A stretch of 64,000 bases of DNA from Atriophallophorus winterbourni (taxonomy: Eukaryota; Platyhelminthes; Trematoda; Plagiorchiida; Microphallidae): positions 5,524 to 69,523 of the forward strand of contig JACCGJ010000559.1 in assembly GCA_013407085.1 (NCBI GenBank), read 5' to 3'. Numbering within the stretch: the stretch's first letter is position 1; each line of letters starts with the position of its first letter. This document shows positions 30,001 through 63,733 of this stretch, piece by piece. A model generated the notes under the pieces. It was not told the origin of the DNA. It ran no database searches and was given only the letters and a program-made list of their open reading frames with translations. The translations under genes and the position numbers were made by a program.

Positions 30001-31437
30001 TCGGAAAATCGTTTAATTCTTATTTTCCGCTATGTGAAACACCGTGCATCCCTTTGCCGCATTTCTAACAGCATACTACATTGCTTTCTCCAACTGTTTC
30101 TAAACTTAAACTTAATCTGTTAATCAGACTGACACAGGCAACTTTCGAATGACCGATCTACACAGTGGATCTAATTCAAACGATCAAATTAATAGAAATG
30201 ATCAGTTTTGTAGTGCTCACATCCACTGCACATACGCATCCCAACTGGTTTCTTGTTTCTGAATAATAGTGGCATTCAAGTATACATTTGTCTAAAACTT
30301 ACCCACGTTTCAAGGCTCCCTGAACCTGATCTTTTTGTCTCCATCTGATGAGGGCAAACAGCCAGAAACCGGTTGCGGTGTGTAAGTGCAAGGGATGTGA
30401 GCACTGCAAAACTGTTCATAATCTATTATACTCCAGATTTTTACAGAATGCGTTGAAAATTTATAATTATCCGATCATAAACTGAGACTTCGTTTCATGT
30501 ATGATGCGGAAGTATAGTTCTGTGTACATGAGAAAAAGAAATTCTTTCAATGTATTTAGCAGATTTCGAAGCCTAATTGCATCAATATTGTGGCAGGCAG
30601 TGATTAAACTTCTCACGAAGCCGAACTTTGCGCCCGACTAACCTCAATAGGAGTTTATCCAAATGCCTACTATATTTGGTGGAGAGTTTGAACTTTCCGT
30701 TTTCCGTTCATTTTTATCACTAGTGTCAGTGGCATATTTTTCATGATTTACGAAGTCTAATTCCTCATCTAGTTGCTCCTTGAATTGACGATCTGACTGC
30801 AATCGGTTAGCAGACTCAAAAATTACCCTCTACTTCAAATGCAAGTCTCCGTGCAATAGGCTTGGCTTATCGTTTTTCGTCGTGATTTAAGCATCCGATG
30901 AGTATGTGCGGACTCTCATTTCCATCAAACCTCGAAGCCTCTTCGACAGCCGTTAAATCTTTTTAACCATACATTTGAAACCCCGCTAGTATCGTGAAAC
31001 TGAAACCAGACCGTTGTGTCTGACTTTGTTCTTCCTTTTTTATTCTTTTTAACAGTTCTCCGGTTACTTGGTTCTCACCGAGCCACCTAGTCCGCTGGGC
31101 CGTTATCAAGTGAAATCGGAAACGATTTTGAAGAATATGAAGGTATCGTATATCAATCTTATTGGTTTTTCTATTTGACGTTGATATTTTTTGTCTGTGT
31201 TATATGAGTTGTTCGAAAAATATTTTATATTACAGAATTTTGGGATCATTTTGAGAATGAATTTCAATGATTTAGAGTCATATTCAATTAGGAATTTTCA
31301 GGTATAAGTCAGATTTAAATGTTGAAGCATTTTGAGGCACGGAATGTGTATATTTCTCTTTCTCTCTCTATCTATATATACATATATATACCTAGATCGG
31401 TTCGGTATCACTTGTATACGGCTGTAAAACTGACACG

Positions 31438-34400: not shown

Positions 34401-37400
34401 GGCTCCACCACTCAGTGGCCGGCCCCACAGGGACCACCTACAGAGGCATAAATCCGCTCACACATAATAAAGCCTAGACGACGCAAGGCCCCTGGTTTAG
34501 ACGAGTTACCAGCCGAACTATTCGTTGAAGGTGTCGACGTTTTGTGCAGTGCTCTTCGGAAAGATCTGGAACGAGGAAAACGTACCCAGCGCGTGGGGAC
34601 CGTCAGCCATGGTCCCAGTATTCAAGAAAGGGTCGAGGAAAGAGTGCGGTAATCACAGGGGTATCAGTCTCATACCGGTGGTTTCTAAACTGTTTGTATC
34701 AATCATCCTGACCAGGCTTAACAGCTACCGAGAAGCAGAGTATCAAGAAGAACAGGCTGGTTTCAGAGGAGGACGCGGGTGTGTGGACCAAATCTTCACG
34801 CTCCGCCAAATTTTGGAGCAACGTTACCAATACGCGCGTCCAACAATTATCGTCTTTCTTGACATACGAGCAGCCTTTGATTCCATTGACAGAACCGCTC
34901 TCTGGGACTGTCTCATTCGCCATGGTGTCCCACCGAAGTACGTAACCCTGCTCAAGAAGCTGTACTGCCACACCACCGGCAGAGTCAAAGCCTATGGTGA
35001 TTTATCCAAGCAGTTTACCATTTCCAGCGGGGTTCGTCAAGGATGTCCGATCTCCCCATTCCTATTTAACTTTGCGATTGACGATGTCATGCAGGCAGCA
35101 ACAGCCCAGCTACCGAATTGTGGGATAGACCTGCTCCCCGGTCGACGAGTTATGGATCTGGACTATGCTGACGACATTGCTCTCCTCGGAGAGGATGCTT
35201 GCGCCATACAAAGCGCTTTGGATCTACTCGTTGATCAGTTGTCGCTGTATGGATTACACTTCTCTCCGTCAAAATGCAAAGTGTTCCTACAGGATTGGAC
35301 AGACCCAACACTTGATTTGACGATCGAAAACCATAAACTGGAAGTGACTGACAGATTCACCTACCTAGGGCGCTGCATCAAAGGTTCCACAGGTTGTAAC
35401 AGCGGGGTGGTAGTAGGAATGACCACCTACTATCTATAAATGCTCCCAAGTGGCGTGAGTCTCAAATAGCCTCTGACAACCAAGTCCAACTCCGGCTGCA
35501 CGAGTGGCTTTTCACAAAGGCCCGCGGAACTGCTGCTTACTGACAGGAGAAGGGGCGAAAGGAGGGTGGGACTGGGCGCCTCTTAAAACCAGTTTGCTCC
35601 GGCGATGGAGCTCGTCAGACTAACTGGCAATCAATCTAGGGGGAGGAAACCCTGACTCACAAACACCCATGCCTTGGGGGTCACCCGATTGCGGGAAAGG
35701 CGTAGGGAGAAAACCCGAGGAAAAATCCGGAGAGAGCCCGTTAGTAGATACTGGCGCACAGCGCGTGTATCCCTGCAACTCCCTGCTGTCGGTTGGTTGC
35801 ACTTGACTGTGCAAAGGCTAGAGAGGTGTACTCGAACAAACACCAAGTGGTGCTGGGGACATCACTTGTACACTATCCCCAAGAAACTTCATGGTGATGT
35901 CTCAATCTGAGACATCAATGAAGCCGGCTAATCCACCCGTGGAGCCAGCCGCACAAAAGTAAAAAAAGGAGCTGCATCACCGCTGGGGGCGATATCGAAG
36001 CTGAAATCACAGCTGTCCTATGTTTGCTTGTGACAAATTTAGGAACGCTAGGGATAATTGCTACATTTGCCCGACGCCAGCAGCATACTACATAAAGCTG
36101 TGAGCAATTACAAGATCTTGCACATGGATACGAAATAAAAAAACCATTGGAGTTTGAAAACAAGTAATGTTTTTCTGTAATCATCACCATCGTGAACAGG
36201 TTTCGTGGCGGTTATAGGAGAAGAAACTATAGTTCCATGTATTTTTTCGATCAACACAATTGATTTGTTTACACACCATCACACAAATGAATTCCCGTTT
36301 GGTGATACAAATATTGATGTAGATCACCACGTTGAGTTTGTTGCTGTTTTCGGGTGGACTAACGACGACAAAATGACTATTTAGTAAAAGGATAAACGAG
36401 AATGAAAAGTTTCGCATTGTTTCAGGTGATGATTTGTCATTTTCATTTTCCATTTCATTGATATTCCAAATACAGTTTGTCAGTCTAATAGTGGACAGTC
36501 TGTTCCGGATCACATTCCCATCCCTTACACACCACTACCGGTTTCTGGCTGTTTGCCATCGTCAGGTGGAGACAGTAAGATCAGGTTCAGTGAGCCTTGA
36601 AACAGTGATAAAGTGGTAAACAAAGTTATGCTTGTATGCCACTGTTATATAACCTTGTTTACCCTTTATCCACTGTTTCGACGCTCACTGAACCTAATGT
36701 TACTTTCTCCACCTGACGATGGCGAACAGCCAGAAACCGGTAGTGGTGTGTAAGGGATGGGAATGTGAGCAACACATTACTTTAGTCTGTTCAGGAATTT
36801 TCATAATTTTTTGACGGGGCTAACTTGATCAACACATGACTAGCTGAGATATGTCGCATTTGCTGAAACGTGTTTCCATTCCAAACCAATGAACCACTCA
36901 ACACCACTTGGTTTTAATCATTTATGTAATCACGTATTCAATGAATCGTCGTCTAATGATAGTCCGCTTATTTTCTACAGCTGTCCCAAATTGGCGAAGA
37001 TGATGAAATTGGCATACCGCATAGTTTTCGAATCAGAGCCCAAAATTTATGCGTACAGGTGGCATTCTCGTGAGTTTGAAGCATACCATTGTAACTGGCG
37101 TGGTGATTCAATGGATGACCTCAACTTGCGATTTTGCCTAGATGGTCATAATTATTTTGATTTCCACCGGGTATTACTTTGGAGTGAAACCCATGTTATA
37201 CGATCCACCCCACCCCACGAGAAGCAAGTTGCGCGTGTATAGCGCTCGTTGTTTATATTTTATAGTAGGGCTGGCTTGCCGAAATACCTCCACGTGGTGC
37301 CCGCTGGGTGGGCTCGGTTCTCCGAGATCAGCGAAAGGTTCGACGGTGGTGTCTGAGGGCGTGGTGGGTTTTCGCCTGGCAAGCGTTCTCCCTATAAAAA

Positions 37401-40400
37401 GCCACAAAAATCCAATGATGACATCACGACGCGGCGGATGTGTCTCGCCGCTCCAAAAGTCACTGCCCCTTGTCCTATCCAAGGACATTGTATGGTGCAC
37501 AGGCAAAAACTGAAGTCACCAACCTATCAACGGTGTTATCGGGCTCCGAACTGGAAATTCCCAGAAAAGGGCGTATGAACCGCTTCGTTCGTCACCGGCC
37601 ACCGATAGGTGCGAACCTCTCTCGCTTCACCCTGGCCGTGGTGTTGTAAAGGCTCTGGTGTGGGACCCCATAACGAATCCTTCCCAACTCAGTGGATGCA
37701 CCGGGTAGTAGCATGTCCGAGTCAACGCTTTAGTACCCCCCTTCGCGCTTTGTACATTCATTGTTTAATGTTATTGAACGGCACTATATCTTATCGATTG
37801 TGCAAATATAATCATAATCATCTTATCGTGGGGGCTGCGGTGAAACCAACTGATTCAACAAGCACGCCTGCAATTTCGAAGTTTCCAGGCTCCCGCGATT
37901 ATAGCCATATAGCTAGCATTGGTAGCAATTCCGACGAAATGGTGGCAATGTACCAGGAGATAGACACAGACTATTTCGGTCTTATTATGTGCCTCATGAT
38001 ACTAAAACAATCACCGATTGAGTGGCGGTTATTAGCCGTTTTCGGGGTTTGTCTCGTTATGTTTTCCTTATTACAAACGATTCGTATCCAAGTCCACGAT
38101 TTCGACCGTCACATCTATCGAAATTCTCGCAGAGTTATAGATTGCTGTTTTACCATGTGTTTTTTCCTATTCCCTGCTGATCGCTGTCAACGCTCTGTTC
38201 AAGTTAAGGGCGATCAGCACTCACCGAGACTTACACGAAAAACGCAACCTTAGAATGCTAAACATTCAAGCGTATCGGTCAATTTTTCGAATTAAAAATT
38301 GTGATGCATTTACTCTTGTTAGCAATAACGAGGAGAAAAAAAGCTGGTGGGACGCTATTCAAAGTGCGATCGAGGAGGAAAACATGCGTGAAACACATGC
38401 AGAAAACGGTGATAACGTTAATGGATTGGTATGTTTCACCGGTTTTACTAATTCTGTTCGTTCACGTGGTCTGATTTCTCTTACTTCGAAGCCGTACTTT
38501 TCTCAAACTTTCAGCTTCATATGTCGCTTTGATCTTAGAGAGAGAGAGCCTATGCGTACGGTGTTAGTTTGCTTACATTTTTAACTTGATACTGGTTATC
38601 TCTCTAAATTTGGTAGTCACACGGCATCGATAACGCAAGTGCGATTGAATGCTGGGAGTGTTTCGTCAACAGTCGTGTTCGCACTCAAATTTCTCAATGC
38701 ACCCATTTGAAAATTAGACGCAGCTATAAGTTAGAAAAATGAGTGGTTTATATCCCTGTGAGATAAACAAAATAAGTCGCTTTGAGACCCAAACGTCATA
38801 CTGTCCTACCAAAAGACAAACGGTGCTTGTCCAATAAACGCTGACGTTTATCCTTATCAAGCCATACGGAAGTTGCTCTCCTTCCCCTGGCTGCTCGGCT
38901 AGACATCACATTCTTTTAGTTGCGAACACTTAGGATTAATAGCAATGGTACTGGTCTTGATAAAATCCACGAAAGCCAAAAAAACACCAACTGTAAATGT
39001 TGCTAACCCTGAAACAACCACACAAAGTGCTTATCTACGCGATAATGTCAGCGGGTGTTGGTCACAGTGAAACAATCAATAATGGTTTCACGTGATTACC
39101 AAAGTTTGGACATGAACCGACTGTCCAGTGTGTGTAACAAGTTACGTTAGTTGTTTCCGCGGCTGTTGACCTAATTGCCAGCGCACCTGAATCAGTGCTG
39201 AGAATCATGTGATTTTCTAAAGGACAGCGTTTCCAGGAGCTTGGATTTTGTGCTTGTAGCGTAATTGGATTTTCAGCATCATCCGCCACACAAAGTTGAC
39301 CGATTTTCTAAACGGTTGCGCATGATTGAGCGTCCTTATTCTCTCAGTATATAATTGCTTCTTTTCTGGAACTGTATTTCTGACGGTTGTTTTGATAGAG
39401 CACTCGAAAGTTGAACTGATCCAATAGTTGGATGCGGGCAATAAATATTGTGGGCCTCCTATGGTCGATGCTTATTTCCTATTCCACACCGTCTCGCATG
39501 ACTACGCAGTTCGATTCGGGAGTGACAAGTTCACGGCAATAAGCAGTACTTGGTAAATTGGCGGCATTCGACAACTTTCGGAGTGCCCCGCGTTCGGTGT
39601 TGAAAACGACACGTTATCTCCACCAGAGTAAATATCATGTACATTTGAAAACAAACCTTTGCAACTCATTCAACCTGATGGAATATTACCACAATATGGC
39701 ACACTAATCACAGGTATGGTGTTGTCGCTCAAGTTAGCAGAACAAGCATCACACATTGAGAATGGACCTCGCTCTTGCGGTTGCCTAATTCAATTTTAAC
39801 TTGAACTTCAATGCGTTGGCGTGAAAAACCTTTTGGGGAACCAGTGTGAAAATGGATAATTTTACCCTATTTGCATAGCGTGGGTAGACAATGTAAGGAG
39901 CACCTTACCAGGTCTATAAGACATGCGGTTTCTACCTCTGCATTATCACCCGCCTGTTGGGTTACTTCTGTAGAATGGAAAGTGGTTGCATTCCTGAAGA
40001 TTCACTTCTCTCGTGCGGTACAAGACGCTTGCAAATGGTGCGTGGATGCTGTTGACATAGATCCGACCTTAATAGCCCTTTGGGTGACAGTAAAATACGT
40101 CAGTTTAAGCTCCGTTGAGCTATAACTGCCACACCGGACCAAACGATTATTGCTGTGGGGGAGATTGCTACTGCAATATCGGACTACGTCTACATACGAT
40201 GGAATCTGATCGATGAAATCAACATACGGTTCTAATAAAAATGTCCACCGTCGACATCCAACGATACAAACCAGAAATAACAGCAGCTCGACTTATTATT
40301 ATTATTATTACTATTACTATTACACAAGTCTTTACAGACGATGTGCCAACAAGTATACCATGAAGAGGGTACATGATGAAAGGAAAAAAGGTCTAGAGAG

Positions 40401-43400
40401 GCTAGAGAGGGGAAGACTTTTGAGTCAAAGGCTCCAGGTGGGGTCCCCTAAGCTAACCCCTTATTTTGGCCTTGGCAACCGGGTAGTATGTCGCCTCAAC
40501 AAGAACCATGGAACCTACTTCAACCATTACTTGCTGTCCAAACTATCTTCGCTACATTACATCACTCAACTTATTCGCAGCTGTTTGCTCAATCTGCCTA
40601 ATGAAAATTCGTTATTGGTGGTCATTGTTTGTTGGAACAGATCGATTCCTTTGAACAGGCACTATGTAAAGCATCATCTACAAGATGGGGGTGGAGCAGA
40701 TACTGCTGCCGATTTCGTGTCACGCTGTCAGTGTGCAACGGACATTGATCGACCCATTACTGCTTATCGCTCTCAGCGCTGTGATGCATGAAGTCGCCAC
40801 GCGTTTGTCATGTACATCTATGGTCGACATCGACCGAAGCCTACCAACAACAAAAAACAACTGATTGAGATGATTTCGTGACGTGAAAGCTCAGACTACT
40901 ATCTTCCTCGTAACTTTTACGACGAATGGCCAATTTATATCCAAATTTTGTGCAAAATTGCCGCCCATCTCCAAATACCCTACACCGAATGCCCTTCTTT
41001 AATAGACGTTTCTTTGTGCCTGTTTCCTCGTCCCTCACAGGACCTGCCTGCCACCACCGGATCGACGGCGGTCGAATGGATTCGTGACGAGCAGGCGACC
41101 ATGTGTGCCGAGTGCAGCACCGAGTTCACCGTGTTCAATCGCCGACATCACTGTCGAGCATGTGGTCAGGTAAGCGGTGTGTGAGGCACAGGCATATTCT
41201 CGTAAATATTTGGTGAACAATTAATACCACTTTTCGAAATTTCGAGCCAGTTTATTTTCGGCATATTTCGCTTCTTGTGGACAAATGATTCGTAAAATAC
41301 TCACCATCGTCATGTCAGAACCTCATGCGTTCGCACAATTGATGATGATGATGATGCTTGAGTGGATGTTGCTACTCCTGCTAATCTCAGTCAACCGATG
41401 ATGTTCATGTTCCGCTCAGCCGTGACGGGTATGCTGACGAGTAGGATCGACCATCTTCCATGGATTCGATCACTTGTATGGTGGCCATGTAGAAAGGAAA
41501 TTTTAATTCACCAAGACGTCATTCAGTGGCTTATAGACAATGGCTTTCCCGAGAGTTTTGCAAGGCACCAGCTAAACTGGATGAAACACATCACACTAAA
41601 ACAAAGATAAATTGGTGAGCTACGGAATGCATGGGGTTTGTATAATGATAATTAGCATCTTAAATGAGAGACAATAAGGGTATGGTATGGTATGAAAGCA
41701 CAAGCCTGATCCAAGCAAAGTGCCGCACAGTCAGAGACTGCACGTGGGCTAAGATACTGTCAGGTTGCCCAGTCCTTGACAGATTTATCCGCAAATGAGG
41801 AGCCACCAGAGTGGAAATGGAAATAGAAATGGCAGGGAGACTACAGCGTGTTTCAGCATGTAGCTTGCTACCGTTGGCCAATTAATTTAGCACGATGTTA
41901 GCCGCACAGCACAGAAATGCTGCACGATTGTACATCCGTGCACACAGACAATAAGGGTGACATATATGACGCGTAGAACTCTTTGGTCAGCTTTGGTACA
42001 GTTCGAAGTTAAGTTAACTTTAGATATTTCTACTTATTGTGTGTATAGGAACAAGTGCAAAGATTGCTTTACTGTATACATAAAACATACAACCAAGGAA
42101 CTTCATATGAGGTATGAAGAACTCAAGAGCTGCATAAAGAACTCTCAGCAAAATGAGACGGATTATCAGTCCCTAATCAGAGACTCCGATTTCGCTCAAC
42201 ATGTGCTAGACACTGGTCACAGCGCGGATTTGGAAAAGGTTGATGTCCTGTGGCCTACACTTATGCCTTTTATTATACGCCTGCACATAGAGGCAGTTGA
42301 AATTACGAAGGCTGGAACAGAGGCGATTAAGGAAATATACGGGACTGAAATCTTCACATGAAACTCGGTAAGCGACGGACAAACATTAATTCATGTTCGA
42401 TTTCTGCATAATTTTCAGCGAATTTTAGCTCTATACACATTTGTCACATGAGAACAACTATGTCAATAACCTTGGCCGATTTCACGTTGTGCTGAGTAAA
42501 TTAGCCAATTGATCTGGCGTTTGTTTACATGACACATCACACGTAAGATTTCGGTAGGCCACTCAAAGCTGTTTACTTTCATTCGCTGTTCTGACTGACG
42601 AAACTTCCGTGTCAGAAGCGAATCGTCACCCCAACCGGCTCTAACCGATCGCCGTCGTGTTTCATGTTCATGGCACGGATAAATCGACCGGTCCCTAACA
42701 TTTTCTCATACATTCAATTTACGTTGTACAAGATTTCACCACTGTTCTAGCCACAAATGGATCCTTTAAATTCACAGCGCTTGAGTTCTATTTACGGTAT
42801 TTGAACATTGGTTTAATGTAAAACTACTCAGTTCTATACATATTTCAGTTATCTATTGTGGATGGTAATCAATATAAGGATAATTTTACATTACTAACGC
42901 GAACAGAACCAAACGCATTACCGAATATTACATATTGCTACGTGTGTCTTGTTTTCGTTCCTCATTTCTGTGTTTATCAATACGAGTTTCTCCGCAGAAA
43001 TTTATCCCCTTAGATTAATATACTCAGAATTACAATTGTTTATCTATAGCAAATTGGCTAAATGTTTAAGTGACACATTGTAATAAACTGTCTAAACTTA
43101 GATCCGAAGTGTTCCGATTGCCATGGGAAACAGGTCAGGTTATATCACCACTAACGCTTCTGTTTTGCGCAGTTCCATGCATGGTCCATTATTGAAAGTG
43201 ACATTGATTGGTTGTTGTTTTATTATCAATTATAACGAGCGGTTTTGGTTTTGTTCTGATGCAAATCACCGCCTTTTTCTCTTCACTTCATGTCATCCTA
43301 AGCAATACACCCCACCCATTCCCCGGCATATTTTCGAGTGTTGGCAAATTTTATACCATTCGTTGTCCATTTACACCTCCGCAGGTATTCTGCGGTTCGT

Positions 43401-46400
43401 GCACCGATTATCAAGCACCCATCGCCTACCTGAACGGAAAACTTCAGCGTGTATGTGAGGCTGATTACCATCTGATCTATGGTGAGATGTTGCCAGGTAA
43501 ATCGTCCTCAGAAAATTCACCGGAACACGATGATGAGGTAAGAATCTGTCGCGTAATATTTGATCATTTACGTCTCTCTGCGTGATCAATTCGTACTGAT
43601 TATTCTAACCTAGTGCAAAGGACACGCCTTACGTTAATAAGTACTACGTTTGGTTCTGATGCACTTAAATAATTCCCGAAATGTTATGTAGATTCCGTGA
43701 TTTCTCGATTTATTCGTAATCTATAGTGGGATGCTTATAACAGCGTATCTAAGCGAATTTGTTTCCAGGCACCCGAATTCCCTATTCTGTCTCGGCAATA
43801 ACTATGGCATACAGACTTTTCTCATATTTATCCACGTCAAATTGCGTAGTTGAAGAATGATGGCACGTTTTTCCAGCATGCATTTCCACCACCTCACAAA
43901 GTTGTTTGCCTGATGTCAGCGGACCATATTCATTCTGTGAGAGAAACACCCCATTTATTGTCAACAATGTTGTGCACCATTCGTCCTTTGCTTCCTCTCG
44001 TCACTAAAAATTGAGTGCAACGGATGAGCGAGTGAACATAACACGAACGTTTACTCATTAAGCTCAACACAATGGAACTCCAAATCTTTTCCCACTGGGT
44101 GCATCGCTATGCCACCTAGGGTTGCGAAATGACATCAGATCAATCGCATGTTTCTCGTTCTAAACTCTGTTACGTTGTTCATGAAGTTTTTGCGGAAACT
44201 CGATGCCACGTCAACCTCCCCTCGTTTTCCCTCCCTCCCTTCCAAATAGCGTCCCAACTCATCCCAGAGTGCAACCTGTACTAAGTTAATCTAGCTCACC
44301 CACGAAGCCAACTCAACACAACTCACATGGCAATAAATAAACTACACACACGCAATGTAATGGAAAATGTTTGTGACCGATCGGGGAATCATAATCATGA
44401 AAAAATAAAATTTGTAATGAATCGGTGAGAGTAGTTTATTGGTAACGTTTCGCTTTTGACACAGAAGCTTCGTCAGACCAAGGGTGTCAGTACGAACAGA
44501 GATCAAGCTTAAATTGCATTCACCTGACCAATCATAGTCTGGTTAAGAACTGCACAGTCCATGGTGGGTTCTGCGCTCGTTAAGAAGGACAGGCGCGTTC
44601 AATATCAACTGACGCACCACCACCAATACGTGCTGTATAATCCCTTAATTGTTTTAGTCTTGGCAGGTGTGAATGACATCTGCTGACAGATTAGCGCGAT
44701 TGTGTAATCGGTGCGCACACTAGGGGTTACGCACGTTAATGTTTATCCGCTGCAGGACCGCACGCCAGATTGTGGAGATATCAGCCCCATCCACCTTATT
44801 GACAGCATTCTTACCAGCCTTTGTTATCTCAACCGCCTCAGCGTGAGCGTGTATGGTTTTATTCCCCACCTTATCACTTTTACGTTGTCAAGATCAACGC
44901 TGTGTGACCTGTGTCCAGCACGTGTTCAGCTAGTACTGAATCTCTTATCAGTGATTGATATTCACTAGAATTGCGTAGCTGCCTACCAATTAATTATACT
45001 AGTACTGAATTCCCTGGATGTTTGCCCGATATATACTCCTTAGCAACCCTTGCAGTTAATCTTATGCAAACACAACACTCTGATCATCACGTCTCTACGG
45101 GTTCTTACTTTGATTTGATTTGTCACAATCAATTTCGTGACAACCGTTCATTTGCCGAATCTTGGCGGATTACATATCATCATTCAATAGCGATTGACGT
45201 CGTCCATTTGTTCGCGAGCATGGTGTCACTCGACTCGTTCTCATGCAACGCTTCTGAAATCCGAGTTAGCGATTGTGTTAGTTGCACGTTGTGACGTTTC
45301 CTGCTCTCANNNNNNNNNNNNNNNNNNNNNNNNNNNNNNNNNNNNNNNNNNNNNNNNNNNNNNNNNNNNNNNNNNNNNNNNNNNNNNNNNNNNNNNNNNN
45401 NNNNNNNNNNNNNNNNNNNNNNNNNNNNNNNNNNNNNNNNNNNNNNNNNNNNNNNNNNNNNNNNNNNNNNNNNNNNNNNNNNNNNNNNNNNNNNNNNNNN
45501 NNNNNNNNNNNNNNNNNNNNNNNNNNNNNNNNNNNNNNNNNNNNNNNNNNNNNNNNNNNNNNNNNNNNNNNNNNNNNNNNNNNNNNNNNNNNNNNNNNNN
45601 NNNNNNNNNNNNNNNNNNNNNNNNNNNNNNNNNNNNNNNNNNNNNNNNNNNNNNNNNNNNNNNNNNNNNNNNNNNNNNNNNNNNNNNNNNNNNNNNNNNN
45701 NNNNNNNNNNNNNNNNNNNNNNNNNNNNNNNNNNNNNNNNNNNNNNNNNNNNNNNNNNNNNNNNNNNNNNNNNNNNNNNNNNNNNNNNNNNNNNNNNNNN
45801 NNNNNNNNNNNNNNNNNNNNNNNNNNNNNNNNNNNNNNNNNNNNNNNNNNNNNNNNNNNNNNNNNNNNNNNNNNNNNNNNNNNNNNNNNNNNNNNNNNNN
45901 NNNNNNNNNNNNNNNNNNNNNNNNNNNNNNNNNNNNNNNNNNNNNNNNNNNNNNNNNNNNNNNNNNNNNNNNNNNNNNNNNNNNNNNNNNNNNNNNNNNN
46001 NNNNNNNNNNNNNNNNNNNNNNNNNNNNNNNNNNNNNNNNNNNNNNNNNNNNNNNNNNNNNNNNNNNNNNNNNNNNNNNNNNNNNNNNNNNNNNNNNNNN
46101 NNNNNNNNNNNNNNNNNNNNNNNNNNNNNNNNNNNNNNNNNNNNNNNNNNNNNNNNNNNNNNNNNNNNNNNNNNNNNNNNNNNNNNNNNNNNNNNNNNNN
46201 NNNNNNNNNNNNNNNNNNNNNNNNNNNNNNNNNNNNNNNNNNNNNNNNNNNNNNNNNNNNNNNNNNNNNNNNNNNNNNNNNNNNNNNNNNNNNNNNNNNN
46301 NNNNNNNNNAAGATGGGGGTATAGCAGATTTTGTGTCACGCCGAAAGTGTGCAACTAACATCGATCAACCCACTACTGCGTATCGTTCTCATCGCTGTGA

Positions 46401-49400
46401 TACATGAAGTCGCCACGCGTTTGTGCTGTACATCTTTGGTCGACATCGATCGAAGGATACCAACAACAAAAACAACTGATTCAGATGATTTCGTGACACC
46501 GTAATTGACGTGAAAGCGCAGACTACTATCTTCCTCGTAACTTTTACGACGAATGGCCACTTTATTTCCAAATTTTGTGCAAAATTGCCGCCCATCTCCA
46601 AATACCCTACACCGAACGCCCTTCTTTCTTTGTGCCTGTTTTCTCGTCCCTCACAGGACCTGCCTGCCACCACCGGATCGACGGCGGTCGAATGGATTCG
46701 TGACGAGCAGGCGACCATGTGTGCCGAGTGCAGCACCGAGTTCACCGTGTTCAATCGTCGACATCACTGTCGAGCATGTGGTCAGGTAAGCGGTGTGTGT
46801 GTGTGAGGCACAGGCATATTCTCGTAAATATTTGGTGAACAATTAATACCACTTTTCGAAATTTCGAGCCAATTTATTTTCGGCATATTTCGCTTCTTGT
46901 GGAGAAATGATTCGTAAAATACTCACTATCGTTATGTCAGAACTGCATGCGTTTGCACAAATGATGATGATGATGCTTGAATGGATGTTGCTACTCCTGC
47001 TAATCTCAGTCAACCGTAAAAGTTAAATTTAACACAACTTGACCAGAACCATGTTTTTTTCGTTGTGATGATGTTCATGTTTCGCACAGCCGAGACGGTA
47101 TCGACCATCTTTCATGGATTCGATCACTTTTATAGTGACCATGTAGAAAGGAAATTTTAATTCATGAAGACGCCGCTATTCAGTGGCTTTGGGACGATGG
47201 CTATCCCGAGAGTTTTGTAAGGCACCAGTTAAACTGGGTGGAATACATCACACCAAAACAAAGATAAATTGGTGAGCTACGGAATGCATGGGGTTTGTAT
47301 AGTGATAATTACCATCTTAAATGAGAGACAATAAGGGTATGGTATGGTATGAAAGCACAAGCCTGATCCAGGCAAAGTGCCGCACAGTCAGAGACTACAC
47401 GTGGGCTAAGCTACTGTCAGATTGCCCAGGCCTCGACAGATTTATCCGCAAATGAAGAGCCACCAGAGTGGAAATGAAAATAGAAATGGCAGGGAGACTA
47501 CAGCGTGTTTCAGCATGCAACTTGCTACCGTAGGCCAATTAATTTAGCACGATGTTAGCCGCACAGCACAGAAATGCTGCACGATTGCACATCCGTGCAC
47601 ACAGACAATAAGGGTGACATATATGACGCGTAGAACTCTTCGGTCAGCTTTGGTACAGTTCGAAGATAAGTTAACTTCAGATATCTCTACTTATTGTGTG
47701 TATAGGAACAAGTGCAAAGATTGCTTTTACTGTATACATAAATATGCAGCAATAGAACTTCATACTAGGTATGAAGAACTCAAGAGCTGCATAAAGAACT
47801 CTCAGCAAAATGAGTCGGATTATCAAAGACTACGATTTCGCTCAACATCTGCTAGACACAGCGCGGATTTGGAAAAGGTTGATGTCCTGTGGCCTACACT
47901 TATGCCTTTTATTATACGCCTGCACATAGAGGCAGTTGAAATTACGAAGGCTGGAACAGAGGCGATTAAGGAAATAGACGGGACTGAAATCTTCGCATTA
48001 TGAAACTCGGTAATGCGACGGACAAACATTAATTCATGTTCGATTTCTGCACAATTTTCAACGAATTTTAGTTTTATACACATTTGTCACATGAGAACAA
48101 CACTGTGTCAATAACCTTGGCCGATTTCACGTTGTGCTGAGTAAATTAGCCAATTGCACTGGTGTTTGTTTACATGACACATCACACGTAAGATTTCGGT
48201 AGGCCACTCAAAGCTGTTTACTTTCATTCGCTGTTCTGACTGACGAAACTTCCGTGTCAGAAGCGAATCGTCACCCCAACCGGCTCGAACCGATCGCCGT
48301 CGTGTTTCATTTTCAGGGCACGGATAAATCGACCGGTCCCTAACATTTTCTCATACATTCAATTTGTACGTTGTACAAGATTTCACCACTGTTCTAGCCA
48401 CAAATGGATCCTTTAAATTCTCAGCGCTTGAGTTCTATTTACGGTATTTGAACATTGGTTTAATGTAAAACTACTCAGTTCTATACATATTTCAGTTATC
48501 TACTGTGGATGGTAATCAATATAAGGATAATTTTACATTACTAACGCGAACAGAACCAAACGTATTACGTTCGTCTGTTTTCAATTGTATCTGCTATCGA
48601 ATATTACACATTGTTACATGTGTCTTGTTTTAGTTGAGTTTCTATAATAGCTCAACAAAGCCCCTTGACCTTCCTCATTTCTGTGTTTATCAATACAAGT
48701 TTCTCCCCTTAGATTAATATACTCAGAATTACAATCGTTTATCTATAGTAAATTGGCTAAATGTTTGAGTGACACCTTGTATTAAACTGTATAAACTTAG
48801 ATCCGAAGTGTCCCGATTGTCAAGGTCAGGTTATATCACCACTAACGCTTCTGTTTTGCGCAGTTCCATGCATGGTCCATCATTGAAAGTGACATTGATT
48901 GGTTGTTGTTTTATTATCAATGATAACGAGCGGTTTTGGTTTTGTTCTGATGCAAATCACCGCCTTTTTCTCTTCGCTTCATGTCATCCGAAGCAATACA
49001 CCCCACCCATTCCCCTGCATATTTTCGAGTGTTATCAAATTTTATACCCTTCGTTGTCCATTTACACCTCCGCAGGTATTCTGCGGTTCGTGCACCGATT
49101 ATCAAGCACCCATCGCCTACCTGAACGGAAAACTTCAGCGTGTTTGTGAGGCTGATTACCATCTGATCTATGGTGAGATGTTGCCAGGTAAATCGTCCTC
49201 AGAAAATTCACCGGAACACGATGATGAGGTAAGAATCTGTCGCGTAATATTTTATCATTTACGTCTCTCTGCGGGATCAATTCGTACTGATTACTCTAAC
49301 CTAGTGCAAAGGACACGCCTTACGTTAATAAGTACTACGTTTGGTTCTTATGCACTTAAATAATTTCCAAAATGTTATGTAGATTCCGTGATTTCTCGAT

Positions 49401-51410
49401 TTATTCGTAATCTATAGTGGGATGCTTATAACAGCGTATCTAAGCGAATTTGTTTCCACGCACCCGAATTTCCTATTCTGTCTCGGCAATAACTATGGCA
49501 TACAGACTTTTCTCATATTTATCCATGTTAAATCACCCTGCATTACGTCAAATTGCGTAGTTAAAGACTCACTCACTCACTCAGCCCTCTCCGTGCCGGG
49601 TGGCACATGAGGCGAAGACAACTTCACGCCAGTGGTTCCGGTCTGTCGCTGCTTCCGTTGCCGTCTGCACCGTGAATCCTTGTGCATGTAGTTCGCGTTC
49701 CAACGTTCTGTGCCAAGTTTCCTTGGGCCGTCCCCTTTTCGTTTACCTTGCGGACGATACCTTCGTATGCGAACTGGGATCCATCCTGCATACATGACCG
49801 AGCCACGGATCTGTTGTCTTCGTTTCCGTAGCAATGTAGGTTTTACGGGATAGGGTTGCTAGCCCTAAGCCCAACCCTCCTCCTTTCTCAGACGGGCTTG
49901 GGACCGTCCTTGGCGGAGTTGTTGAAGACTGATGGCGCGTTTTTTGCAGCATGCATTTCCACCGCCTCACAAAGTTGTTTGCCTGATGTCAGCGGACCAT
50001 ATTCATTCTGTGAGAGAAACACCCCATTTATTGTCAACAATGCTGTGCACCATTTGTCCTTTGCTTCCTCTTGTCACCAAAAATTGAGTGCAACGGATGA
50101 GCGAGTGAACATAACACGAACGTTTACTCATTAAGCTTTTACGAATAACCTTTCAACACAATGGAACTCCAAATCTTTTCCCAGTGGGTGCATCGCTATG
50201 CCACCTAGGGTTGCGAAATGACATCAGGTCAATCGCATGTTTCTCGTTCTAACCTCTGTTACGTTGTTCATAAAGTTTTTGCGGAAACTCGATGCCACGT
50301 CAACCTGCCCTCGTTTTCCCTCCCCCCTTCCAAATAGCGTCCCAACTCATCCCAGAGTGCAACCTGTACTAAGTTAATCTAGCTCACCCACGAATCCAAC
50401 TCAACACAACTCACATGGCAATAAATAAACTACACACACGCAATGTAATGGAAAATGTTTGTGACCGATGGAGGAATCATAATCATGAAAAAATAAAGTT
50501 TGTAATGAATCGGTGAGAGTAGTTTATTGGTAACGTTTCGCTTTTGACACAGAAGCTTCGTCAGACCAAGGGTGTCAGTACGAACAGAGATCAAGTTTAA
50601 ATTGCATTCACCTGACCAATCATTAGCTGGTTAAGAACTGCACAGTCCATGGTGGGTTCTGCGCTCGTTAAGAAGGACAGGCGCGTTCAATATCAACTGA
50701 CGCACCACCACCCCTACGTGCCATATAATCCCTTAATTGTTTTAGTCTTGGCAGGTGTGAATGACATCTGCTGACAGATTAGCGCGATTGTGTAATCGGT
50801 GCGCACACTAGGGGTTACGCACGTTAATGTTTATCCGCTGCAGGACCGCACGCCAGATTGTGGAGATATCAGCCCCATCCACCTTATTGACAGCATTCTT
50901 ACCAGCCTTTGTTATCTCAACCGCCTCAGCGTGAGCGTGTATGGTTTTATTCCCCACCTTATCACTTTTACGTTGTCAAGATCAACGCTGTGTGACCTGT
51001 GTCCAGCACGTGTTCAGCTAGTACTGAATCTCTTATCAGTGATTGATATTCACTAGAATTGCGTAGCTGCCTACCAATTAATTATACTAGTACTGAATTC
51101 CCTGGATGTTTGCCCGATATATACTCCTTAGCAACCCTTGCAGTTAATCTTATGCAAACACAACACTCTGATCATCACGTCTCTACGGGTTCTTACTTTG
51201 ATTTGATTTGTCACAATCAATTTCGTGACAACCGTTCATTTGCCGAATCTTGGCGGATTACATATCATCATTCAATAGCGATTGACGTCGTCCATTTGTT
51301 CGCGAGCATGGTGTCACTCGACTCGTTCTCATGCAACGCTTCTGAAATCCGAGTTAGCGATTGTGTTAGTTGCACGTTGTGACGTTTCCTGCTCTCAGGT
51401 TGGGCCGGAG

Positions 51411-51442
<32 letters not shown>

Positions 51443-54400
51443 CAGACAGCATTACACCGGTAGCGCGTATCCAATGCTTAACTGCCACACAACCATGAAA
51501 AAGTAAAATCCTAAAAGACGGGGAAGGGTGGGACTTAAATAGCTACGGATTCTATAGAAGAGTAAGCACAAACAAACGGGGTAGAGGTGCCTACACCTCG
51601 AATGGAACATGCATTCAAACAAGTTTCGTGAACGAGTAGAGCGGAGGTTGGTGTTTTGTATATCATCCCCACACTCTTTGCTACTGCACCTCACACCTTT
51701 ACATTATGTATCAAGGTTAGAAATGTCCTTGGGCCATTAATTGTCAGTTTGTCTGATAAATTGCTTGCAATTGAACATTTTTGCGAATTATTACAACTGA
51801 GTTACACCGTGTATTCGCTTGCTCACTTAAGTAATTTTCGTTAAAGTTGTTGCACATGCTAAACAATATTGCCGCCAGCAATAGAGGAGAATATACGTAG
51901 CTCAGGATGAGGATGTTGTTCAGATGGCGTTCGCCGAGCTTGTGTAGTAGTTGTTGTTGTTGTTGGACGCTAGATGACATCATCAGCGGAAGCTCTTTCG
52001 AAGTGACTTCTAATTGGCCGCTAAATATTGCCGCCGTCGCACTGCTTGTCAATATCCTTGTAAATACCAAGGTTTTGATCGCGCCTCGCGATGAAGCAAG
52101 GCTGTTCAAGGGTCGATCGGATCACAAATGCTTATTGCGTTCGAAATACAAAATGCGCTTTTCAACTCAACGTGTTTGTTTATGGTCCTTGATTTTCACA
52201 CTTGTCAAGCGATCGACTTGGTGAACTCGTCTCACAAACCGAGTTGCAGTTTGTTCTCCTTTGGCCCAATTGCCGATTCCGTCATGCGATTGTTGGTCGA
52301 TTCGATTGTGTTTTTATACTTCAACCCGATTCAACATTTTTCGGGCGAATTCTTGTACAAATACTTTATCCACTCAAGACTGATCCTTGCATGACGATGT
52401 GTCACATTCAACAACAATCTGTGGATTAGGTCACTTGTTTTACTGAAACAAAACTGCATGCAGAACGAAAATTCAGATTGTCTTACACGAGTTTGAGCAA
52501 TACTAAATCAGTTACTAACAGATGTGTCTGTTTTCGACACCGCATCGTGTACTCTGTAGACGCATATGAGGCTGTAGTTTGCAGGCAAATGCATGTATGT
52601 ATTTTTGTGTGCGACTATCTCCTCCTGGAGGATGAGTCGGCTTCAATAAAGATTCTTGGGAATTTGGGTACAAAGCGGCGTCCCCAGCACCACTCGGCGT
52701 TTGTTCGAGTCAGCTTCTCTAGCCTTCGCACAACCAAGTGCGACCTGCAAGGCAGCAGGGAGTTGCAGAAAGAGGTTGGTGTCACAACTAAACCGTCTAC
52801 CAGACTCTGATTCCTAGGTTTTCCTCATGGTTTTCTACCCGAATCTTTCCCGCGATCGGGTATCACAGCATTGCAGCGGAGACGTAAAATCAGGGATTGT
52901 CCTTCTCTTAGATTGAAAACGCCCTACAGCGCTAAAGATGCTATATATCGACGAAAGCAAACTGGTTTTCAGACGCCAGTCACTCGCCCTCGCCCGTTCT
53001 CCTGTTGGTAGAAGCAGTTCTGCCGGGCTCGGGGAGCCACTCATGCTGGCCAGAAGCTGGACTTGGTTGTCAGATGCCATTTGAGACGCGCGCCATATAG
53101 GAGCATTTTATAGACGGTGGTAGCTTATCCCCACTGCCACCCCCGGCTATGACAACCTTTGGAATCCATGTATACATTGACATCGTCCGGTTGCTATTGC
53201 ATCTGGATGTTGATCTCAGACGCATGATGATTGCATAACGCTTAGTATAAAGATAAAGTCCACTGGAAGGGAAACATTTGGCCACCAAACGTTCACAATG
53301 GTATGCGGTACATAGTAAATAGCCACCGTTTATCTTGCATCGGTGTAGCAGTAACGTCCATTATTTCCATCTCGAAGTTAACTTCAGAATGTTCGCCCTC
53401 AAGCTATTTCCTTCCTCATTCTATTCTGAATTTAAAGATCTTCTTTCATATTTATTCCTTTAATGTTCCCGTTAAGTAGAACTGTAGGAATACAACCGTT
53501 TTCCATCATATAATCATGAACCACTCTGTATGTGATGGTGTCAAAGCAGTGCGATTATGTTCTACGAAGCAGCACCTAAATTACACGAACTAGTCGATTT
53601 TAAGCACTAGGATGTGCTTATAAAGCTCGAACAATAGAAACTGAGTAAACTCAGAAACATATGAGAAAAATGCAATTGTTACACAACTTTTGCCTCAACT
53701 ATCTCTATGTATTCGTGTGTGTGTGTGTGTCCTGATTCGATCGGCAGTCAGTTATTTAGCACCCATTTGCTAAACTTCATTTAGCTTCGCTTACAATCCC
53801 ATGAGAAATGAGCGCTTTCTTCGTAATCACATCATCTGCATTATTGTACATTTGCCTTCTCTCCAAATGAAACTTCATTTTTGACTTTCCGTATCGGTTC
53901 ATGGCATTAATTACTTTACAGGATTCCAAAACAGTACAAAAGGGTCATCTGCTCAGTTGTCAATACAGACATGGAACATGGAGTCTCAAACCGATACATC
54001 GTTCTGCCCTTTGTACATCGTACATCAAACACGTCAAGGTGATGTTGTCCCCTACAAGCAAAGAAAGCGCTAAAACCCCGAGCAACAAAACTGGAAGCTC
54101 CCAAAGTCTACCAGAAGCGGGGGATACTACCGATCATGATAGTAGTAGTAGTCCACCCACTAGCCAAGCTTACTTGTCTCGTGTGTTTTGTGACTTGCAC
54201 GTGGACACGCTGCTCTCGATATTCGCCGCTCGTGCGGACTCTCGCCCCCGGGTGAAATTCCCGTTGCTTGGCACACGATTGATATACATGGATGAGGCCA
54301 CGTCGGACCTTGGCAAAAAGCGCAGTTCTTCTTGTGGCAATCTGGATGCGATGGACAAAACACCGCAATTGTTTCAATATTGCAAAGTGCCCTCCAAGGA

Positions 54401-57400
54401 CGAAGGCCAACCGAGTTCCCCGGTGAACAACACCACCACCACCACCACAGGAAATCCGATCTACCGGAATCGAAAACCACCACCTCCACCACCCCCTGCT
54501 CCGGTTGATTCAACGGAACCGCAAACCAACAATGCGATAGTCGATTCTCTCCGTCCACTGAGGGAAAAATTGCAGTCGGCCGCTGGTCAAATTGATTCGC
54601 TGGCCGCGAAGGGAATGCGTATGGCTCCCAAACTGCTGGGACTGTTGGAACAGATGCAGGCGAACCAACCATCGGGCTCTCGTGTGGTCAACCTTTCCAA
54701 CGCGACGGAAGAAGTGGATTCGCATCAACAACTGGAGTCGGTGTCACCAATGGTGGTTCGGATGTTGCGCAATCGCCTTGGTTTCATCCTGCTTCCAATG
54801 AATTCGGATATTATTGCGTATTATTTCGAGGCTCAAACTTTGGAAATGCGCAATCGGTAAGTTATTTTTTTTATGTCATCAATTTGGAAGGTTTCAATCA
54901 GCCCATGTTGCATGATTCCTTTTTGGCATGAATAAAGCGGACCAGTTTCTTCATGCTAGCCTCATCCAAACGTGGCTTGGAAGTTTATACCTTGTTTACA
55001 ATTTCCTCACGTGTCAACACATGTGTATCCTGATCGTAGTGTCCCGACGTGATAAGCGCAAACAGCATGAAATCGGCGGTGGTCTGTGTTCGTGAGAGAG
55101 TGAGATGGAACTGCACACGATTGCTGATGTATTGTGTTGCTCACACACCACCACTACCTTACCATTACTTTTGACACCACTACAGTTTCAAGGCTCAATG
55201 AACCTGATCTTACTGTCTCCACCTGATGACGGCAAACAGCCAGAAACCGGTAGTGGTGTGTAAGTGCGGGGGATGTGAGCAACACATCACGTTGGTCATC
55301 CATAAGCGCCTCGAGCGCTTGGCCAGGAATCACTTTGTGATTCTGTGTTTGAACATCGTGGTTCGTTGTACGAACCCTATACAACAGTGACATACAAGTT
55401 GAACTTTGTTTCACACGATTGCGGTTTTTCGCTCAAACCCATGGGTTAAACCCCAACCACGTGTGTGTGTGTCCACCTGCAAGCATTATCCAACAGGTCA
55501 TCACACCGATATGCCTGGTTTTCGAAGCGTCCGTTATGAGTCATATCATGCATTGTTACTCATGGCAAAAATAACACACGTTGCATGTAAGACTGGTTTA
55601 TAAGTAAAAGCGCTATCGCGGGCAGTCGCATATCTATTAGCGCAACGAATATTATCATATGCATTTGTATGGAACTTCTGCGATGCTGACGGCAAAGAAA
55701 ATACTCTCAAAATATCGCATGATTGGTGATATTTTTGATATATAGAGGCATATTTCTGTTTGCTACTTGGGAATTTCTGTATATTCTGCAATGAAATAGC
55801 AACGTTCGCATCTCTGTGATAACAATGCGTGCTGCAAAGGAATAAATGCCACAAGCAGGCTACCGTGCTGATGTCACACTACTGGTTCGCACAAGTTGAG
55901 TAAATGTCTTTTTTATATTGAAATGAAAACGTCAAACTCTACTTTAAAAGTCCCCGACATGAATTTAGACACCATATTTCATCGATTTTGTGGGAGTTGA
56001 GTATAGCTGCTTTATTTTCATATAATGCGATCTTTGAGTGAGACACGGTTCAAGGTCATTGAGATCGAAGTAGTAATGATTTAAAGTCATTGATCCATTG
56101 TGAGCGGTGTGAAGTGTCATTGACAGATCTTAACTGAAATGTTTTTGAATACCGATGACTATAAATGACAATCTGGTTATAACCCGACTAATACTGTCGC
56201 AGGAAAATTCAATATGCGACACTATGAAAGGTAGACAAACTACAATCTTTTGCTCCTCGTATGCTCACCACTCACACCTGTCACTGGCCCGTTTCGGGTA
56301 TGGGCCTCTGCTTCTTGGGAGTATCATGCTCTGGTTGCGCTTAAAATCCCACTTCTTCGTATCCGGTGAAACATGGAAATGTACGCGATTGCAGGCAATT
56401 TGTCTCACAATCATGTCACTTGATCCACGTGACTGTAGCTCCCACCACAGTTGAAATACCCTTTACAAAAAGGAACACCATACTTCCCAACTTAGACTCA
56501 CCGGTAGTAATTCAGAATTTAACATTTGGAAAAAAATTGGATGCAGTCGAAATCTTCCTGAACCACATTTATGAGCTGGAGATCCCGGAAAAACAGTATC
56601 CTAATATTATCGCTCGCATCAATATCTCGTTTACGAAGAATCCATTTGACCACGTACTTCAAGATTCTCTGTGAACCTCGATATAAAGATTCCTTGCGAA
56701 TCGGATTGCATATATTCGTGAAACACTTTGCAGAATAATTCGTGATCGACTTCGATCGAATGTTTCAAACATTTCAGAGGTTTCTCTTGAAGTTAATTTT
56801 TGATTCTCGGTCCACACAAAATGCTCTTCACTCCTACTTGTGCTCTTACAAATGTTTCTTGCTAGTTTGAATGATATTTCTGATGGTTTAATATAAATAC
56901 GCGTCGGTCAAGTCACCGTGGTATTCCTATGGCATGGCATGAACGCACAATCCTGATCCAGGCAAAGTACCGCACAGTGGGAGACTGCACGTTGGCGAAG
57001 ATACTGTCAGGTTGCCCAGTCCTAGGCAGATATGAGTAAGAAAATAGAGATGGTAGTGAAACTGCGGTGTATTTCAGCATGCAGCTCACCACCAGTTGCC
57101 AATCAATTTAGCACGGTGTTAGCCGCACAGTAAAGAAGTACTGCACGATTGCACATCCGTGCCGTGGTATTCTTACACCGAGTATTGCTGCGTGATTCGA
57201 TGCGATTATCAAGCTTAAAAGGGATTCAGGTCTTGTTTTGTGTGTCAGAATTTTGCAGGAATAATCAATTTCACCTCTGCAAGAAATTAGGATACACGGA
57301 AACAAGCTAAACGGAAAGTTTGCTGATTAGTTTTAGCACAAATAATGATTACATAGCGTGATAGCTTTACCGGTGAAATTTATTTAGACATTGATATTGA

Positions 57401-60400
57401 AGGCATTCATGACCGTTAAGCCACCAGCGTGTCCATCATCAAGGTGTCCTTCGATTTGTATGAGCACTGCATGGCTGTTGCTTCAAAAATCTGATACGTG
57501 TTTGCTTGCGATTGGATTATTTGGTGAAGGTATTCATCCCAGTTTGCACGTAATCTTCTTCAGATTCCGTGGCTTTTGTAGTTCCACCCGTCCGGTTTAA
57601 TGCTGTCGGTTATAATGATGACGATCCAATCTTCTTCATACTCTCCTTTATCTGTTGATCCTTCTTCCACAAATTGTTTGCCAGAATATCTGGATCTGAA
57701 ACTGTTTTTCAGGATGAGAGCGTTAACAATGACTTACTATCCACTGCTTGTACTACCGATTCTATTATCACAAAAGCCGATTATACCACAAAAATGCTCA
57801 CTTGCATGCTTTTCTTTCTGCTACGCCTCTCGACGGGTTTTGTGCTATTTGCGCTTGAAACAGTGGAAGAATGGAAAACAAAGTGCTCCTCTATGCAAGT
57901 GTTGGATATGGTTGGTACGACCAACCTGTTCAATCACAGGTGTCCAAACACATGTAGGTAGGGTTTAAACATATGATTATGAACAAAAATGCTCATTTGC
58001 ATACATTTCCACCACACACACAGCTGTCCTTCCCTGTGAGTATAAGAAACAATACGAATGGGTTCCCAATGGCTAGGGAAAGTCAACAATGTAAAACAAG
58101 TTCAATAGTATGTTACTTTGCCCTGAACGCATCTTTGCGTTGATTTATGCACCATTTTAACCACGCAACTTCGGAACAAGTTGATCTTGATCGCTTACTT
58201 TGGAGGCACCGTGTAGAGCGTCATCCCAAAAGAGCCGATACTGCACTCGGCTGCTAAACTTAGATTAAGCCTGACCGAGTTCAAATGCCCCTGATCAGCT
58301 GAGTACTACCGAGCGCTGTGGACTTGGTAATCGTCGTGAGCTTGTAATGTATATCCATTTTAACCCTCAGGCAATCTATGACTACGTAGCACTTTACCTA
58401 GCTCAGACTTATGGTTTCATACCTCCATAAAATGTGGATTCATGGTCCACATCGACCGAAGATGGCCAACACCCGCTCCTCACAAGTTCACTGGCGCCTG
58501 TCAGTCAATCGAAATGCCTTCAGAAATCTCGTTACATTTCCATTCTAATGCTTTTCCGTTACACACACTGGCATCATGACACTGTGCTTCTGATACGGAG
58601 ATAGAGACGAAAGTTAATCCATTTCGGATTTAGTAACGCTGTCCGACAAAATATGGCTGTCGTTAGTCACGTGCGTTGTGGTTTGCCCCTCCATTTGTAC
58701 CAATTACTTGCACTCTCTTATCTTCATCATCAAGAATGTTATCATGTACATCTCGCTCTCATTTAGTATTATTCAGAAAACGCAAACATTATACGAGAGA
58801 AATCATTGTTCAGGTTTTTACAAATTCCTCGACATTCCATGACCTGTGGCATTCCACTAACCTGTTGTTCCGCACAAGTGGGTACTGCCCGCTTGCTCCC
58901 TTGTTCATTTTAACAACTCACAGCTTTAACAACCCACATGGGCTGCATTTGGGATAAACAACTTTATATGTGAATCATGGCACTTTTGTGCTTCCCGCAT
59001 TCATCAATCGTACAGGGCAAGCATACAATTTGCTCGACCTGACAAATGAGACACTCGTTATAAAACATGCATGGGGATGCTTTCGAAAGTGGTTCCACTT
59101 TCGCTTGTTTACTTGTGTTCATTTGTTTACCTCAGTAAATCATTCATTTCGGAATATGGATGTTTTATGTTCAGTAAACAAAGCCACAGAAGTGTTCACA
59201 ACCCCATTAGTCATCTCTGAGATTTTCTGGGCTTTCGGGTGTTTCACGACCGGGGAATGTGTTGATAAAGCAAACCACCAAGCAAGTACTATCACATTTC
59301 TTCGTGTTCCTTCGGTCATAGGGCGCTAGAATCAATTAACTCGATATTCGGCCCATAGAAATGCTTATGGTTTTTGAATAGGCTGTCAGACCCTAAAAAG
59401 AGATTGATTTAGATTCTTAACCAAAGTTTGTTGACCATCCACCAGTAAAATCAGAGTACTTTATCTTCTATAAACTGAAATCTCATCCAAACATGTAAAA
59501 TTCTCTGAATTTGCATGCATTTCCATCACACACACACACCCCACGACCGGTTTCCTACTGTTTGCACTCATCGTGTACGGACATTACGACCGGGATCCGC
59601 ATATCTTGGATACATGGTAAACAAAGTGTGAAATTGTAAGCCACTGTTGGATAAGGCTTGCACCACCAACCATTTACAATTATACGTGTCAGCACACATT
59701 TAAACCAATGGTCCTGAACAAAAAACCGTATTTGCATGCATTTCCATCACACACACACACACTCCACGACTGGTTTCGTGTTGTTTGCATTCAAGCCCAG
59801 GCTTAAACCATCTACATGTATATCGACACATGTGATTGAACAAGTTGGTCTTACCATCCAACATTGGCTTACAGGGTCATACCTTATCTACCATGTATCC
59901 ACTGTTGCAAGGCATGTGGATCCTGATAGTACTACACCTTAACTAAAAAGTGCAAACAGCACGGAACCAGTCGTGTGCCGTGTGATGAAAATGCACACAA
60001 ATGCAATTTTTTGTCTCAAATTCCCATTGACTCTTTCTCATCTGGGCCTGAACAACCGGGATTATTGACTGGATTTCGTTGTTGTATGTGCTCTATTATT
60101 CAATATCCACATCACCATGATAAATTAAATTTTAAGCGTTTGCCGAGTGTTTACAAAACAGTAGTGACATTTTCGTAATATGAGCCTTGTACACATGCAT
60201 TGGATAAGATAGTACTTTGTCCTGAATATACTGGATGGGTTACGAACCGTAAACTTGAGAGTCATAATGATTTCCTATTCTCTGATTTGAGTTCCCTTCC
60301 CAACACACACACACACCGGTGATACATTTGTGTTGTTTTGTCAAACTTTCAGATGGATCAACGCCATTCGCCATACCTGCCTGGCTTACATGAACCAACA

Positions 60401-63500: not shown

Positions 63501-63696
63501 TATCACGTGTAAAATCCGATTAGTATAGCGATTTTTCAACGTATGACTTCGTCTAGAGTTTTGCATGAACAAGCGTGTATTATTCGCTTGAGCTGAAATT
63601 GATTGAAAGCCTTTGAGTTCTCCCGTCTTGGTTCATTAGCCATCTCCTATCTATAACATCAGGACATTAAGGAAATATCCATATCAAACACCTCTC

Positions 63697-63733
63697 ACGA
63701 ACCGGTTTCGTACTGATTGCGCTTATCAGGTAG
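63697..63733 (-). ncRNA. Degenerate hammerhead-family copy
   Basis: Minus strand: CUGAUAA (core G to A), GCGC-AAUCA-GUAC, GAAACCGGUU. The core change and weak stem II suggest an inactive remnant. Confidence 0.45.

Follow-up and report, generated by a model that had tools for sequence, protein, structure and literature searches.

Minimal type I hammerhead motifs in dispersed, probably Penelope-type repeats of the trematode Atriophallophorus winterbourni

A stretch of 64,000 nucleotides from the genome of the trematode Atriophallophorus winterbourni (contig JACCGJ010000559.1, positions 5,524 to 69,523 of the forward strand; hereafter the window) carries a dispersed family of short repeats, each with a hammerhead ribozyme motif or its decayed remnant. 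The repeats probably stem from a Penelope-type retroelement family, of which the window holds only units resembling the pseudo-long terminal repeats (pLTRs) of such elements, and their minimal type I hammerheads may cut in dimeric form. Intact hammerhead cores, direct and head-to-head inverted units, one target-site duplication and covariation in stem II are found in the DNA itself.

Hammerhead motifs in the window

The first-pass annotation of this DNA had described three complete hammerheads, on the minus strand at 36532-36569 and on the plus strand at 36709-36746 and 55219-55256. All three are present with intact core letters, and they are not chance motifs. Because the two near 36.5 kb occupy opposite arms of a single inverted repeat, the three copies represent two loci. 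A descriptor requiring exact CUGANGA and GAA, at least three pairs in stem II, at least two in stem III, at least three in stem I and H at the cut gave four perfect matches in 64 kb: 36536-36565(-), 36713-36742(+), 55223-55252(+) and 5316-5346(-), the last belonging to another family and absent from the first-pass annotation. The same descriptor matched nothing in 200 dinucleotide shuffles, and 400 permuted cores matched nothing on the real window. With one mismatch allowed, the mean over 20 shuffles was 0.1 matches; a loose pattern with up to three mismatches found nine matches, compared with a mean of 0.36 and a maximum of 3 in 100 shuffles. One of these nine (3523-3552) was set aside as unrelated.

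The decayed copies that had been listed at 4142, 30341, 55044, 59541-60000 and 63697 were all found, and 59764-59801(-) and 57828-57865(-) extend that list. Altogether, 11 copies of this family (family A) could be placed in a 38-column register. They fall into a young clade (A1, copies h1 to h4), in which every copy keeps all 11 core letters with A or U at H17, and an old clade (A2), in which all seven copies have changed core letters (Table 1), so that the core is damaged in 7/11 copies. Such decay of the core is normal in mobile elements and is what insertions decaying neutrally would show.

A second family (B) is located at 5.3 kb. Its copy B1 has an exact core and matches the Rfam model Hammerhead_HH9 at 23.0 bits, below the gathering threshold of 52 (E 0.33 in the whole window, 0.0015 in 301 nt). 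It faces a damaged partner, B2, in an inverted match of 79 bp at 87% identity, and the outward inverted layout is that of family A with a different sequence. A further inverted repeat (5150-5212 to 5360-5422, 89%) surrounds B1, and the segment 5150-5422 also matches the plant microRNA precursor model MIR840 weakly (26.7 bits, gathering 150).

Architecture of the insertions

The clearest insertion, at 36.5 kb, is a head-to-head inverted pair of A1 arms between the two halves of a 13-bp target-site duplication. The 3' ends of the arms face outward, and the right end is 15 bp longer than the left, resembling a tail. Self-comparison of eight regions detected inverted units in family B at 5.3 kb and at five of the seven family-A loci, namely 4.1-4.3, 30.3, 36.5, 55.2 and 59.5 kb. 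Identity of the inverted match is 86.9% at 36.5 kb, 83% at 30.3 kb and 68-75% at 59.5 kb, where h9 is inverted relative to h10 and h7; the cases at 55.2 and 4.1 kb are based on short matches (13 bp exact, 55133-55145 to 55274-55286, E 0.002; and 31 bp at 77%). Direct tandem units were recovered by self-match at two of the seven loci: h10 and h7 are spaced by 221 bp at 59.5 kb, and h12 at 57.8 kb lies 195 bp from an upstream 3' end at 57995-58009. At 63.7 kb no direct self-match was seen; an upstream piece resembling a 3' end, recognized from a match of 63800-63893 to 57913-58009 and by eye, suggests that h8 is probably also part of a direct tandem.

By eye, the starts of the pieces at 4.3, 57.9 and 63.8 kb seem to fall within about 15 nt past the hammerhead cut; this is kept as a weak lead, the boundary being in a TG-rich stretch. 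Inspection by eye gave no clear target-site duplication at 30.3 and 55.2 kb and no convincing RNA polymerase III boxes in the units. The A2 3'-end motif was found at eight places, one of which, 7020-7034, was judged unrelated and excluded. A perfect 52-bp tandem duplication at 4310-4420 lies beside the old A2 element there.

Table 1. Positions of hammerhead motifs and insertion features in the window
Feature	Position	Strand	Remark
Old copy h5 (A2)	4142..4179	-	1/11 core letters changed
Inverted A2 3'-end motif upstream of h5	4307..4321	+	4300-4330 inverted to 4103-4133, 77%, E 0.004
Hammerhead B1, second family	5312..5350	-	exact core; descriptor match 5316-5346
Hammerhead B2, damaged inverted partner of B1	5486..5515	+	inverted 5272-5350 to 5482-5558, 87%
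Inverted partner arm of h4 element	30190..30253	-	83.1% inverted match to 30364-30428
Hammerhead h4 (A1)	30341..30378	+	11/11 core letters; stems I and II damaged
Left target-site duplication, 13 bp	36497..36509	.	12/13 letters equal to 36784-36796
A1 element, head-to-head inverted pair of pLTR-like arms	36510..36783	.	self-inverted match 36510-36768, 86.9%
Hammerhead h1 (A1)	36532..36569	-	core intact
Hammerhead h2 (A1)	36709..36746	+	core intact
Right target-site duplication, 13 bp	36784..36796	.	partner of 36497-36509
Old copy h6 (A2)	55045..55082	+	3/11 core letters changed
Short inverted A1 3'-end piece left of h3	55132..55148	-	3 mismatches to A1 3'-end motif
Hammerhead h3 (A1)	55219..55256	+	core intact; C.A mismatch at stem II closing pair
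Old copy h12 (A2)	57828..57865	-	5/11 core letters changed
Old copy h7 (A2)	59541..59578	-	2/11 core letters changed
Old copy h10 (A2)	59764..59801	-	4/11 core letters changed
Old copy h9 (A2)	59939..59976	+	3/11 core letters changed
Old copy h8 (A2)	63696..63733	-	1/11 core letters changed

Stem II covariation and core conservation

Covariation was scored in an alignment of 10 of the 13 copies, from which h12 was excluded because most of its first core strand is missing, and the two family-B copies because their loop lengths differ. The score for stem II was 0.372 compared with 0.185 in shuffles and was reached by none of 500 shuffles. Pair 13-23 is GC in four copies, UA in four and unpaired in two; pair 12-24 is GC in three, UA in two, GU in one and unpaired in four. 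Stem I is paired at 70%, both-sided changes are absent from stems I and III, and the score for the whole structure (0.196 vs 0.161) is not above shuffles, 77 of 500 of which reached it. The support from stem II is real but small, because the change at 13-23 marks the single split between A1 and A2, and UA at 12-24 is confined to one insertion.

The compensatory change that the first-pass annotation had seen in stem II is thus present, and its weight was overstated, since it amounts to one split between two clades. The proposed UGGC/GCCA subfamily dissolves into a single insertion: this stem II occurs only in the two arms at 36.5 kb. The copy at 55219 has CGGC/GCCA, with a C.A mismatch that makes the description of all three copies as fitting every hammerhead requirement, true of their core letters, slightly too strong, and the copy at 30341 has GGGC/GCCA with a G.A mismatch. 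The broader picture of a dispersed repeat family with hammerhead core and helices and a minimal palindromic stem III is borne out.

Core bases changing as fast as their flanks had been named beforehand as the mark of a chance motif. Among the young copies, 0/11 core columns vary, compared with 16/63 others (motif 6/27, upstream 5/14, downstream 5/22), with p = 0.11 two-sided and 0.054 one-sided; this comparison leaves out eight downstream columns where h1 contributes flanking DNA, and the p = 0.029 obtained with them is not relied on. Taken with the damaged cores of the old copies, the outcome is mixed: the trend in A1 leans towards constraint on the core without establishing it.

Folding and the dimer model

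The geometry of the loop implies that a monomer should form no more than one A-U pair within ACCGGU, capped by a CCGG loop, and the minimum-energy monomer folds of h1 to h4 differ from the hammerhead. When two copies were folded together without constraints, h1 gave the exact double hammerhead, with 22/22 pairs, and h3 gave 20/22. In both, stem I runs past an internal loop into a CUUAC/GUAAG helix. Dimer folding energy was rejected as evidence, because shuffled sequences gain more.

Possible overlap with a putative reading frame

The hammerhead adjoins, and possibly overlaps, the start of a putative reading frame. The first in-frame ATG before the cut lies at 24 nt in h1 and h2 and at 27 nt in h3, h4, h5 and h7 (6/11 copies); in h6 an in-frame ATG lies 12 nt before the cut, and four copies have none before it. 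Compared with h3 and h4, the copies h1 and h2 lack the first AUG (C at position 7), but the U at their stem II closing position both restores a U-A pair and provides an AUG in frame, one codon further on. This is as a dual constraint would predict, within one insertion and with the direction of change taken by inference. That ribozyme and frame start form one dual-coded element under joint selection is nevertheless improbable in our estimation. If it were true, dimerization would gate a cut 24-27 nt into the frame; the start codon would thereby be lost, and a translatable transcript would become a non-translated replication template. The length of the open frames was rejected as evidence, as such lengths often arise by chance.

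Probable Penelope-type identity and alternative explanations

The first-pass annotation had mentioned Penelope elements as a known parallel, and the layout of the insertions goes further, making a Penelope-type identity the most likely one. Inverted and direct units, a one-sided 3' extension, a target-site duplication at one locus and the possible overlap of hammerhead and start codon match the published layout of pLTRs. In a rotifer, Penelope pLTRs measure 181-218 bp, occur directly and inverted, mostly head-to-head, with palindromes at the inverted junction, and one inverted pLTR may carry a 31-bp tail; target duplications are 8, 9 or 10 bp and are absent in some copies (PMC3846280). Family-A units are of roughly 200 bp (spaced by 195-221 bp in direct tandems), likewise direct and head-to-head inverted, and a tail-like extension is present at one locus (36.5 kb, 15 bp). 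Transcripts with at least two units would pair through the palindromic ACCGGU of stem III and would cut as a double hammerhead after GUH, 24-27 nt inside the putative frame. Reverse transcription of this RNA at a new site, presumably by a Penelope protein whose gene lies in another place, would then produce the direct and head-to-head inverted units of about 200 bp and, in at least one insertion, a short target-site duplication. We use the name Penelope-type, as distinct from an autonomous Penelope element, because no frame with reverse transcriptase and GIY-YIG endonuclease was found among the 20 of 81 ORFs compared with Pfam and the insertions are too short to hold one.

Several results weigh against this reading. 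Among the 81 open reading frames, or ORFs, of at least 100 aa, the 20 given to Pfam contained no Penelope protein or GIY-YIG domain and no single ORF joining the latter to a reverse transcriptase; they returned reverse transcriptase, endonuclease/exonuclease, FYVE, a weak RhoGEF match and two sub-threshold zinc-type matches. A clear target-site duplication is seen at one locus only (36.5 kb, 12/13 letters). The two-copy fold keeps 14/22 pairs in h2 and 0 to 5 in eight other copies, and dimerization of h1 gains less energy (-3.7) than the median for shuffled sequences (-7.6). In a transcript of the 36.5-kb insertion, both arms would form a single long hairpin of -202.9 kcal/mol, which is expected to outcompete or bury the ribozyme. 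Conservation of the young cores loses significance when columns that are not homologous are removed. CUGAUGA by itself almost supplies the in-frame ATG, which is largely implied by core letters, and open frames of at least 24 codons have a chance probability of 0.36. In addition, a lizard Penelope element inserted in vitro without needing its hammerhead, and its cut site coincided with no read end (PMC11167929).

The main rival hypothesis is that the units are non-LTR retrozymes. These are SINE-like tandem repeats bearing type I hammerheads; they occur in corals, mussels and salamanders and resemble the SM-alpha repeats of schistosomes. Their transcripts would self-cleave to monomers of about 220 nt, be circularized by a host ligase and serve as templates for a foreign reverse transcriptase. 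The tandem units of 195-221 bp, which have no coding region between them, fall within the range of 150-450 bp given for retrozymes, and a single A-U pair with a palindromic tetraloop is the stem III described for the axolotl hammerhead HHR_Amex1 (PMC7229834); the internal loop and outer CUUAC/GUAAG helix in stem I of h1 and h3 are also in keeping with this origin. However, inverted units (5/7 loci) and a one-sided 3' extension are described for Penelope and not in the excerpt of the retrozyme source (PMC7229834), and the window holds no long tandem array, Tandem Repeats Finder giving 11 rows and no period near 195-221. A retrozyme origin is considered unlikely. Still further down is the view that the motif arose by chance or is vestigial, lies in an ordinary fold-back repeat and does not act as a ribozyme. 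The damaged cores, a hairpin context that disfavors cutting, whole-structure covariation within the range of shuffles, the p = 0.11 for the young cores and the lack of any hammerhead reported by Rfam at 36640-36800 all fit it. Against it stand the empty controls with permuted cores and shuffles, a stem II covariation score that no shuffle reached, a second family with the same architecture and the complete cores of all four young copies, and we regard it as very improbable.

Other features of the window

The window also contains a match to the twister-P1 ribozyme at 49871-49925 (47.4 bits, below the gathering threshold of 67.2), at the 5' end of a roughly 384-bp insertion (49534-49925, minus strand) that ends in a GAGT repeat. 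Truncated twisters have been described at the 5' ends of RTE elements (PMC7761336). Of the two copies of a tandem duplication (40708-45309 / 46324-51397, 90-97% identity), one contains this insertion and the other lacks it; each copy holds a FYVE zinc-finger frame. The weak RhoGEF match (27320-27715) lies outside the 40708-51397 duplication. Runs of exactly 1000 N at 31486-32485 and 45310-46309 are probably assembly gaps.

Comparison with known systems

Cervera and de la Pena in 2014 and Lunse in 2017 reportedly placed minimal type I hammerheads in the pseudo-LTRs of Penelope-like elements. Such hammerheads occur by the thousands across many animal genomes, both dispersed and in Penelope pLTRs, and a dimer model for them has been published (PMC7761336, PMC6155905, PMC8490949). 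No publication naming the present sequence family was found in the open-licence literature, which is weak evidence of novelty. Pattern scans of viral, bacterial and archaeal contig collections gave 0 matches, which says little where the family is eukaryotic. For the 574-aa reverse transcriptase frame of the window, four pattern stretches were found in viral contigs, none confirmed.

The units share with Penelope pLTRs a minimal stem III, presumed cutting as dimers, a length of about 200 bp, direct and head-to-head inverted arrangement, an optional tail, at one locus a short target duplication and possibly a hammerhead at the start of an ORF (PMC11167929, PMC3846280). Unlike Penelope elements, they come with no Penelope coding region found in the window and stand in tandem without an intervening ORF; the likeness is drawn from layout. 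With the non-LTR retrozymes of animals they have in common a tandem repeat of about 220 bp, a type I hammerhead, low GC (40.9% in the window) and, as in HHR_Amex1 of the axolotl, a palindromic stem III loop; unlike retrozymes as the excerpt describes them, they are often inverted, with at most two in a row (PMC7229834). The SM-alpha and W-element hammerheads of schistosomes are also minimal, lie in dispersed repeats and have an extremely short stem III, a likeness drawn by description; three of five tested candidates were active in vitro (PMC8490949).

Altogether, the hammerhead repeats of A. winterbourni look like a new example of an already known Penelope-type kind. As of 2020, what minimal hammerheads do in Penelope elements was described as a mystery still (PMC7761336). 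The present family, with its two clades, inverted insertions of recent date and a compensatory change in stem II, provides compact natural variants with which the need for dimers, and the competition between cutting and translation, might be studied in such elements.

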